A stretch of DNA of 64,000 bases, from assembly GCF_000246985.2 (NCBI RefSeq), contig NC_022084.1, forward strand, positions 546,280 through 610,279, given 5' to 3'. The notes under the pieces were generated by a model. The model had not been told where the DNA came from and searched no databases. It saw only the letters and a list, made by a program, of their open reading frames with translations. The translations under genes were made by a program, and so were the position numbers. This DNA is from Thermococcus litoralis DSM 5473 (GTDB lineage Archaea > Methanobacteriota_B > Thermococci > Thermococcales > Thermococcaceae). Each line of letters starts with the position of its first letter. The stretch's first letter is position 1. This document shows, one piece after another, positions 5,942 to 52,665 of the stretch.

Positions 5942-5976
5942 TTTACAGTTCAGCCTTAAAGCATATAGAGGATATC

Positions 5977-6386
5977 CTGACCTCCTTCCCGCCTTGAAAG
6001 GCGAGGGTTCCAACGAGCTAACCCCTCGCCAATAGCAGGAAGGTTTACGGGCCCATCACCTACTCCCGTTACCGCCTTTCGGTTCAGCCCGAGGGGACGG
6101 TCTCGCCCCCGTTACCCCTACCCCCAAGGGGACTCGGGGTTATGGTTTCAGAGGCCAAACCTTCAGTTTTTACTGCCTCGAAGGGCAGTCCTTCAAGGAC
6201 GCTTAACAGCGTCCTAACCACTCCAAGCGGAGTGGTAACGCGAAACCCCTCATCTCATCGGGTTATTAAATTTGGCCTCTTCGAGGCCTCATTACTTTGT
6301 AGGAGTTTAAAAGGGTTTCTATTTGAGAGGCTGAATTTCCGAATACTGCATCCCCGCCCTGAAAGGCGAGGTCTTCAAAAGAGAAA
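5977..6386 (-). mobile_element. IS200/IS605-type non-autonomous element (MITE), copy 1, 410 bp
   Basis: No transposase or TnpB is encoded. On the minus strand the element follows TTAC (6387-6390), begins with a GCC-rich subterminal hairpin (CGCCTTTCAGGGCG) and ends GGAGGTCAG at 5977. A second copy at 51848-52252 shares both ends and the internal layout of hairpins (GGCCTCttcGAGGCC, CCACTCC/GGAGTGG, AACCC/GGGTT and others). A TTAC flank, no target duplication and terminal hairpins are hallmarks of IS608-like single-strand transposons. The right-end region resembles TnpB guide-RNA scaffolds. The insertion truncates the neighbouring oxidoreductase gene. Confidence 0.8.
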
Positions 6387-7004
6387 GTAAGGTTCAAAAT
6401 TCTTTAAAGGTCTTCCACTTCGGTGAAGTATCGTCACTTCACTCCCCGCACGTGCTGCCAGATGAGCAAACTCAAAGGATATATAACCTCCACCTATGAA
6501 GACTATCTTGTCGGGAAGATCATCAAGCTCAAGAAATTCGTCGCTCGTGATTACGTGCTCCTCTCCGGGGATGTTGAGCCTTCTTGGTTTTGCCCCAGTT
6601 GCAACAAGGAACTTGTGTGCCGAGATTACCTCCCCATCCACTTCTATCTTATCCTTATCTATGAAGTGTGCTCTACCATGAATGGTCTCAATGCCTGCTT
6701 TTTTGAGACTTCTTTCCATTCTCTCTGGAAATCCTTCAGTCCATTCCCTTTTGAAGGCCATTAATTTTTTCCAGTTTATTCTAATTTCCCCTTCAATGCC
6801 TTTTTCTTTCATTCTCTTAGCCCAGTCAACAAGCTCAGCTCCCCCAATAAGGATTTTCTTTGGATCGCATCCCCTCAAGGCACATGTGCCTCCAAAGGGT
6901 CTCTCATCAACAATTGCAACTTTTAATCCTGCTTGTGCAAATTTATAAACGGCGGAAGAACCGGCAACGCCAGTTCCAATAACCACAACATCAAATTTTC
7001 TCAT
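6375..7004 (-). pseudogene. Truncated FAD/NAD-dependent disulfide oxidoreductase (N-terminal half only)
   Basis: N-terminal part of a class I pyridine nucleotide-disulfide oxidoreductase (mercuric reductase/lipoamide dehydrogenase family, normally about 440-460 residues). Present are the FAD motif GTGVAG (residues 10-15), the redox disulfide C41-x4-C46 in GGTCALRGCDPKK and the start of the NAD-binding fold (IGGGYISFEFA). The frame enters the mobile element at TTAC (6387-6390) and stops 4 codons later, leaving about 205 native residues. The C-terminal half, including the dimer interface, is not found on the far side of the element. A stable product with normal activity is unlikely. Confidence 0.8.
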
Positions 7005-50886: not shown

Positions 50887-52665
50887 TCAACCCTCATCTA
50901 TTATTCTCTTCATCCGGCTCCCCTTAAGGAACCAAACAAAAGCAAATATTCCAGCGATAACGTTACTAAGACCCATGCCCAGAAAAACACCTATGGAAGA
51001 TCCCAACAGGATATAACCTAAAATATAGCTAAGCGGAATCCTCAACCCCCAAAGCCGTAGAATTCCTAACGTCATGCTTTTCTTAGTATGCCCAGATGCC
51101 CTAAACACATTGTTTACCACAACAAAAATGCCGTTGAAGAAGGGAACAGAGGTAAGGAAATACTTCCAAACGACGGCACTTTCCTTTATTACTTCCTCAT
51201 CATTGAGAAAAACCCTAAATATTGGAACTCTTAGAATCCCTATAATCACAACGGCACTTGTAGCTATTAGGATGTTGATGATCATGGCTCTCTCTGCTAT
51301 TTTCTTTGCCCTCTCATATTTCTCAGCACCAACGTTCTGGGCGATCATGGTTCCCATCGCCATGCTTATCCCCCTGGAAATGCTGGTAAGAAAGTTCACT
51401 AAGCGTGTCGTTATAGTATAAGCAGCGTAAGTAACATCCCCAAACCCAAATATTATTCTAGTAAGCATAACAAAGCCAAAACTGTTCGCAGATTGTCCTA
51501 TTCCAGAGGGCAACCCTACCTTGAAAATGCGCTTGTAGAATTCAAAATCTGGCTTAAGCTCCCTTGGCTTTAGATGGATGGGAGCTTTTCCACTAAAGAG
51601 AAGGTATGCTCCGATTATCGAACCGAGGGTATTTGAGAAAACAGTTGCCACAGCAGCTCCGGCAACACCAAGTCTAGGAAGCCCAAAAAGACCAAATATC
51701 AAAATAGGATCAAGAATTACATTCAGGAATACCGTAAACATGTTGATTTTTACTGGAGTTCTTGTATCTCCAGTGGCTCTCATCAGGGCACTAAACGCAA
51801 AGCCCATAAAAGAAAAAGGAAGTCCCAAGAAAACTATTCTAACATATCTGACCTCCTCCCCGCCATGAACTGTGAGGGTTCAGCCTAATCCCTCGCTAAG
51901 GACGGGAAGGTTTACGGGCACTCATCTCCTACTCCCGTCGCCGGTTTCGGTTCGGCCCGAGGGCACGGTCTTGTGCCCGTTACCCCTACCGCAAAGCGGT
52001 TCGGGGTTATGGTTTCAGAGGCTAAACCTTCAATCTTTGACAGCTCTAAAGGGCAGTTCTTCAAGGACGCCTGTCGGTGTCTAAACCACTCCAAACGGAG
52101 TGGTAACGTGAAACCCCTCATCTCATCGGGTTATCAAATTTGGCCTCTTCGAGGCCTTATTAAAGACAGAATATTTAAGGGTTTCTGTTTGAGAGGCTGA
52201 ATTTCCAATTACTGCATCCCCGTTCTAAAGGGCAAGGCTTTCAGAAGAGAGAGTAAGGGCATAGGGATAAACATTTTGAGTAACTTTCATAAATTCCAGG
52301 GCTTTAGGGGTTATAAAAAACCCTATAAGCGCTGTTAAGGATGCAAAAAATAGAACCAGAGAATATAATGCCCCAGCAGCTCTATTAGCTCTATCATACA
52401 ACTTTGCCCCTATGTATTGACCAACAAAAGCGAAGCCAGCAACGGCAAATCCTTGGCCGAGGTTCATGAGAGTTCCAATTAACGGCCAAGAAACACCTAG
52501 AGCAGAAAGAGCTTCTCTTCCAATTTTTCCAAGCCAGAAAGTATCGGTTATATTGTAGAGTACATGAACAAGGTTATTAAGGATTAAAGGCCAAGATAAC
52601 TTGAAGAGAGTTTTCTCGATATTTCCTTCCAGAATTTCCGTTCTCATCTCTTCTATTCTAGTCAT
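50887..52665 (-). pseudogene. MATE-family multidrug exporter, split by a mobile element
   Basis: The N-terminal 138 codons (from ATG 52665) and the C-terminal part (stop at 50887) are separated by the element at 51848-52252. Removing it joins GCCCTTAC to ATATGTTAGA, gives ALTYVRIVFLG and restores 458 codons including the stop. This matches the intact paralogue just upstream (456 residues, ALNYIRVIFIG at the same place). Today the N-part runs into the element and stops after the native CTT-AC codons; the C-part has no ribosome-binding site. Substrate unknown. It can be functional only if the element is excised precisely. Confidence 0.92.
51848..52252 (-). mobile_element. IS200/IS605-type non-autonomous element (MITE), copy 2, 405 bp
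   Basis: Second copy of the element at 5977-6386, in the same orientation. On the minus strand it follows TTAC (52253-52256), starts TCTCTCTTCTGAAAG and ends GGGGAGGAGGTCAG. The ends are fixed by restoration of the MATE reading frame. Internal hairpins are shared with copy 1, including compensatory changes: CCCC/GGGG in copy 1 versus CCGC/GCGG here at 51989-51999. It encodes no protein. It probably moved with a TnpA transposase encoded elsewhere. Confidence 0.88.

Follow-up and report, generated by a model that had tools for sequence, protein, structure and literature searches.

A 405-bp insertion that splits a transporter gene of Thermococcus litoralis DSM 5473 and carries neither tnpA nor tnpB raises the question of what such an element encodes, and with whose enzymes it moves and survives. 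The window (the whole stretch of 64,000 nt analysed here) holds two copies of this element on the minus strand. The positions that had been given for them in the preliminary description of this DNA were confirmed (Table 1). There, the copies had been read as genes for omegaRNA-like guide RNAs lacking tnpB, a reading that is supported by covariation, by right ends shared with tnpB elements and by homology extending into tnpB.

Copy 2 is inserted precisely 3′ of a TTAC tetranucleotide, splitting a MATE transporter gene. When it was removed in silico and the flanks were joined, a stop-free MATE frame of 457 amino acids was restored; TTAC forms the end of the left flank, and a target duplication is absent. 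The uninterrupted site occurs in two genomes of the same genus (G075 and G081, 96 and 95% identity), one of them with TTAC and, over the first 16 nt matching the guide, a single mismatch, and one with TCAC. Searching the 2,215,172-bp single-contig genome with the element yielded 14 copies of ~400 bp, copy 2 and 13 others, as well as short matches to the two ends only, most of which flank five tnpB genes.

Across the family, 98 non-redundant stand-alone copies were assembled. As already noted for both copies in the window, the left end directly follows TTAC; this holds for 66 of 83 copies, compared with 6.4% expected by chance from random flanks, and the right flanks of the 98 copies have no consensus. 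TTAC is taken as the insertion target and is also the predicted target-adjacent motif (TAM). A divergent copy is shared by three genomes (L014, L152 and L153), in which neither its site nor its right flank differs; the right end of L014, GGAGGTCAG, directly adjoins an ATG and could serve as a ribosome-binding site.

Table 1. Features of the two element copies and their surroundings, in positions of the window
Feature	Position	Strand	Remarks
Copy 2	51848..52252	minus	complete 405-bp IS200/IS605-type element without tnpA/tnpB, inside MATE gene
Copy 1	5977..6386	minus	same element, 81% identity to copy 2
MATE transporter gene, split by copy 2	50887..52665	minus	coding parts 52253-52665 and 50887-51847
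TTAC target tetranucleotide / predicted TAM, copy 2	52253..52256	minus	also precedes tnpB and tnpA-tnpB elements
TTAC preceding copy 1	6387..6390	minus	from boundary reading of copy 1
Left-end (LE) hairpin GAAAGCCTTGCCCTTTAGAACGGGGATGCAG	52212..52242	minus	common to tnpB elements of the same genome and tnpA-tnpB elements of relatives
Predicted archaeal promoter, BRE+TATA (GAAACCCTTAAATATTC)	52169..52185	minus	consensus cGAAACCcTTtTAAAc at fixed place; putative function
5′ domain of predicted transcript, hairpin array	52014..52160	minus	no counterpart in tnpB elements
omegaRNA-like core, helices P1-P5	51848..52013	minus	homologous to tnpB 3′ coding end plus right end
P1	51982..52007	minus	ACCCC/GGGGT (51982-51986 with 52003-52007) around ACCG/CGGT (51988-51991 with 51997-52000); apical stem longer in tnpB elements
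P2	51961..51978	minus	GGGCAC/GTGCCC hairpin (halves 51961-51966/51973-51978), conserved AAGACC-type loop
P3	51915..51959	minus	closing helix CGGGC/GCCCG, inner hairpin CCG/CGG; other bases in tnpB elements
P4/P5 right-end double hairpin	51855..51910	minus	in covariation test; also expected TnpA-recognised ssDNA hairpin
Predicted 16-nt guide ATATGTTAGAATAGTT, copy 2	51832..51847	minus	right-end flank; by analogy with ISDra2 reRNA (PMC8612924)
Predicted guide GATATCCTCTATATGC, copy 1	5961..5976	minus	from boundary reading of copy 1

The element resembles the IS200/IS605 family in its subterminal hairpins, in inserting 3′ of a fixed tetranucleotide and in leaving no target duplication, but it has no tnpA or tnpB gene of its own and its ~400 bp leave no space for either, and it is therefore classed as a non-autonomous IS200/IS605 derivative. 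A length that excludes a transposase, IS605-like near-terminal palindromes and the lack of inverted terminal repeats and target duplications also place it with the PATE-type elements. Its 3′ end, GGCGGGGAGGAGGTCAG, had been likened to right ends of TnpB elements and is indeed the right end common to tnpB elements. A search for tnpB elements with this right end, proposed in the preliminary description, was successful within this genome, where five of them have their ends in common with the stand-alone element. In an alignment of both kinds of element, the right-end homology extends into the final coding section of tnpB, which specifies KTITPSLSGLSGGRGNWGKALPEG. Relatives carry complete elements of ~1.9 kb with the same ends, in the order TTAC, tnpA-tnpB, TCAG. 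From these shared ends, the homology into the tnpB 3′ coding region and the complete elements of relatives, it follows that the element is IS200/IS605-derived, with tnpA and tnpB missing and the omegaRNA scaffold kept.

The core has sequence and structure in common with the 3′ end of tnpB plus the right end, as in an omegaRNA/reRNA. In stand-alone copies the P1 apex, located between the shared blocks ATAACCCC and GGTAGGGG, is shorter (10 nt in copy 2) and breaks the tnpB reading frame, so protein conservation cannot explain the homology of the core, and a coding explanation was rejected. The P2 stem-loop covaries likewise inside the coding sequence of tnpB elements from other species (GGCCGGAGACCCGGCC, GGGGGAAGACCCTCCC and GGCCTAAGACCGGGCC), and the P3 helix is retained in tnpB elements with different bases. 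Shared helices with base changes are what an omegaRNA scaffold overlapping tnpB would predict. The stand-alone core departs from the scaffold embedded in the resident tnpB genes in the size and sequence of the P1 apex and of P3, and any recognition by the resident TnpB is therefore hypothetical.

Compensatory base changes between the two copies in the window had been described for two hairpins and were found again: P1b is ACCG/CGGT in copy 2 and of the CCCC/GGGG type in copy 1, and P2 is GGGCAC/GTGCCC in copy 2 and GGGGGC/GTCCCC in copy 1. Because two copies alone are weak evidence, covariation was assessed over many copies, as had been recommended, using 90 stand-alone core sequences from the whole family and structures defined on stand-alone copies. 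Within the core helices 91.1% of cells can pair, compared with 38-51% when the partners were slid by 1-3 columns; for P2 the value is 96.9%, with CG, GC, AU, GU and UA pairs. Double-sided compensatory cells numbered 158, versus 51.9 ± 5.8 upon shuffling, a control that does not remove kinship among the sequences, and 22-58 in the slid control, in which kinship is kept. The covariation score of 0.200 was reached by none of 500 shuffles (0.113 ± 0.003). Folding of the copy 2 core as a single sequence gave z = -3.4, and RNAalifold yielded a poor consensus structure on a mixed alignment of tnpB and stand-alone sequences. The covariation is strong and argues for a predicted RNA core structure that is conserved by compensatory change.

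Upstream of the core, the element has a 5′ domain and a promoter-like motif, cGAAACCcTTtTAAAc, which is located just inside the left end, at a distance of 21-24 nt to the first hairpin in 46 of the 52 measurable copies. Where this could be measured, the motif lies mostly 22-23 nt upstream of a conserved TAATA-GGCCTC start region, and for copy 2 an RNA start is predicted near 52155-52160. Among 59 sequences, the 5′ domain showed 112 doubly changed cells, versus 54 ± 6 upon shuffling. The mutually complementary segments GGCCTC, GAGGCC and GGCCTC in this domain of copy 2 permit a local hairpin or a long-range helix, and a two-state fold is possible.

At the gathering threshold, an Rfam search of the window returned one tRNA only. 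In a permissive search, the core, the right end and ~13 nt of flank matched HgcC (RF00062) and sot0042. The likeness to HgcC is limited in score, as the two window copies reached 22.1 and 31.2 bits, below the HgcC gathering score of 50, and they are therefore not classed as members of this family. HgcC matches elsewhere overlap the 3′ ends of tnpB genes. In the genome G024, a stand-alone element at 1,474,313-1,474,576 is located inside the 5′ part of a hypothetical ORF, and a second HgcC match lies where a membrane metalloprotease gene ends; from ORF layout and gene neighbours we infer that these loci are HgcC4/TK1679 and HgcC5/TK1820 of T. kodakarensis, the former scoring 36.6 bits with the HgcC model. 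HgcC was detected by northern blot and RNA-seq, and differential RNA-seq in T. kodakarensis mapped start sites for HgcC4, which shares its start with the downstream gene, and HgcC5, both without an associated transposase gene, unlike HgcC1-3, which are located within such genes (PMC4247193). If the loci are matched correctly, a homologous stand-alone element, HgcC4, is transcribed (PMC4247193). The function of HgcC was called unresolved in 2017 (PMC5732400), and in Haloquadratum HgcC was described as highly expressed with unknown function (PMC5496347). A literature search of partial coverage returned no paper tying HgcC to TnpB and no description of stand-alone, promoter-driven TnpB omegaRNAs in archaea.

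Matches to the element were detected in 72 of 94 Thermococcaceae genomes, representing all six genera sampled. Nearly all stand-alone copies with both ends measure 378-408 bp from the LE motif to the right end, and none of the 98 contains tnpB. In addition, there are terminal-only elements of ~48 bp, in which TTAC is followed by a fused LE/RE palindrome ending GAGGAGGTCAG without RNA core (for example L048 1580-1627, G000:C1:960 kb), with nine matches in this genome and matches in 49 of the 94 family genomes. Since these core-free elements are common, the RNA is not required for the persistence of an element.

The abundance of terminal-only forms fits the possibility of an ordinary miniature element, that is, an internal-deletion derivative of an IS605-type element that is moved by TnpA and whose internal sequence is inert as RNA. 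Non-autonomous IS605 derivatives, the PATEs, are known (PMC3119063), and the copies have diverged as inert DNA would. Nevertheless, we consider this explanation improbable in view of the compensatory changes in P1-P3 and the 5′ domain, the conservation of the promoter-like motif and its spacing, the steady size of almost all full copies and the published transcription of the homologous HgcC4 (PMC4247193).

An element that encodes an RNA but neither enzyme would depend on partner proteins. An intact autonomous tnpA-tnpB partner was not found in this genome, in which the only gene for a Y1 TnpA carries a stop codon and the ends of its element looked different on inspection. An autonomous partner exists in the family: tnpA lies directly upstream of a cognate tnpB, between the same left and right ends, in G077, G042, G061, G068, G087 and others, and the Y1 TnpA typical of IS200/IS605 is thus found in autonomous relatives with the same ends. 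Five tnpA-tnpB elements of G077 (L216, L217, L224, L225 and L226) have these ends, with TnpBs of equal score, and occupy five different sites, each preceded by TTAC, suggesting recent activity.

In the cognate TnpBs, the canonical RuvC-II glutamate is absent, with GYPK in its place, and a glutamate is found just before the zinc ribbon, seven positions ahead of the first cysteine with six residues between. This corresponds to the Ealt arrangement described in Fanzors and some TnpBs (PMC10711439), and by the motifs GIDLG, [DN]EAFTSKxCPxCG and FNADLVGA (D/Ealt/D) most intact copies possess the RuvC D-E-D triad of a catalytically active TnpB. Damaged TnpB copies in this genome are L045, with a frameshift, and L044, in which a zinc-ribbon cysteine is replaced by tyrosine. 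The elements L042, L044 and L046 have a small ribbon-helix-helix-like ORF between LE and tnpB that reaches or overlaps the tnpB start.

Stand-alone elements, called from the best E-value of the family search, and cognate TnpB were both present in 40 genomes, with 4 genomes having the stand-alone element only, 23 TnpB only and 27 neither (Fisher p = 2.7e-6, uncorrected for phylogeny). In the four genomes G007, G051, G063 and G080, three of which are ≥94% complete, stand-alone elements are present and a cognate TnpB is absent at E ≤ 1e-40.

We think it likely that each copy is a non-autonomous IS200/IS605-type element carrying a stand-alone gene for a TnpB omegaRNA/reRNA, mobilised by TnpA and guiding TnpB in trans. 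In ISDra2, TnpB works with a right-end RNA whose last ~16 nt are derived from the flank, and it cuts the empty donor joint beside the TAM, a cut that might help the element to be recovered (PMC8612924). In the element studied here, TnpA of a tnpA-tnpB relative would excise and insert the element as single-stranded DNA 3′ of TTAC. From its own promoter, an RNA of ~310 nt would be transcribed, consisting of the 5′ hairpin domain, the omegaRNA scaffold and a guide, the ~16 nt of host DNA that follow the right end. Bound to this scaffold in trans, TnpB from a co-resident element would cut sites composed of TTAC and the guide match, i.e. copies of the locus having lost or never had the element, and repair of the cut site would copy the element back from an element-bearing chromosome. 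Binding of TnpB in trans, guide length, cleavage, retention advantage and mobilisation in trans are all proposed by analogy; the element probably borrows the enzymes of other elements to move and survive.

The strings that had been put forward as guides do follow directly after the right end, GATATCCTCTATATGC in copy 1 and ATATGTTAGAATAGTT in copy 2. The intact MATE paralogue had been predicted to be spared for having GAAC instead of TTAC; GAAC is present there, but it would not be the sole reason, as the guide match differs too. For L002 (G000:C1:1824923-1825280), which lacks the left end, the right flank is antisense to the start of a tnpB gene, so its guide would match the tnpB gene region.

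Rather than directing cleavage, the RNA might be regulatory, guiding an inactive TnpB as a repressor or acting as leader or UTR of adjacent genes. HgcC4 of T. kodakarensis, with its start common to the downstream gene, would suit such a role, as would L014, whose right end adjoins an ATG and whose insertion and guide are kept in two relatives. This explanation appears quite improbable, as the catalytic D/Ealt/D residues of TnpB are conserved in most intact copies and most insertions have unrelated flanks. IS200/IS605 transposition uses single-stranded DNA hairpins at both ends, a role that P4/P5 and the LE hairpin fit, but a reading of all hairpins as DNA structures for recognition and excision by TnpA, and not as RNA, is highly improbable and was rejected, given that the ~48-bp elements suggest that terminal hairpins suffice, that in autonomous elements P1-P3 are part of the tnpB coding sequence, and that the promoter motif is conserved.

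As a probable stand-alone TnpB guide-RNA gene, the element can be compared with several known systems. The nearest described elements are the PATEs of Haloquadratum walsbyi, which likewise are transposase-free, have IS605-type near-terminal palindromes, no terminal inverted repeats and no target duplication, and include terminal-only forms (of 52 bp); one PATE contains part of a C-terminal coding region (PMC3119063). PATEs were described in 2011, before omegaRNAs, as non-coding or degenerate, and their description includes neither a promoter nor a covarying guide-RNA core or a guide (PMC3119063), whereas the 5′ domain of the Thermococcaceae element is unique and conserved, and matches to this element occur in each of the six genera sampled. 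The predicted guide RNA that it retains is what is new in this element. With the omegaRNA/reRNA of TnpB systems (ISDra2, PMC8612924; archaeal sotRNAs) it shares the location at the right end and tnpB 3′ coding end, the structured scaffold, the left-end insertion motif and, as a prediction in Thermococcaceae, the flank-derived 3′ end. Those RNAs are normally embedded in tnpB, whereas the RNA predicted here is tnpB-free and comes with a promoter motif of its own and an additional 5′ domain. RAGATH-18 offers a precedent for an orphan family turning out to be a TnpB guide: this structured RNA proved to be the reRNA of IS607 TnpB and is also encoded outside the tnpB coding sequence (PMC11061315); it differs in belonging to IS607 and in lying mostly beside tnpB, compared with a separately mobile IS200/IS605 element here.

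If this reading is true, an omegaRNA has become split from its nuclease gene within a mobile element, similar to the separation of crRNAs from Cas12, and what is new would be that the guide comes from an element lacking both enzyme genes. For IscB, trans-encoded omegaRNAs have reportedly been found. The ~400-bp elements with and the ~48-bp elements without RNA core offer a natural comparison of retention in the same genomes, and the four genomes in which stand-alone elements occur without a cognate TnpB are natural tests of TnpB dependence. A function is thereby proposed for HgcC that is open to test, and T. kodakarensis is genetically tractable. For the Thermococcaceae as a whole, we see an even chance that mobile, promoter-driven guide-RNA genes constitute a dispersed trans repertoire for TnpB that parasitises the transposase and nuclease of its relatives, and that the HgcC RNAs are such guides.
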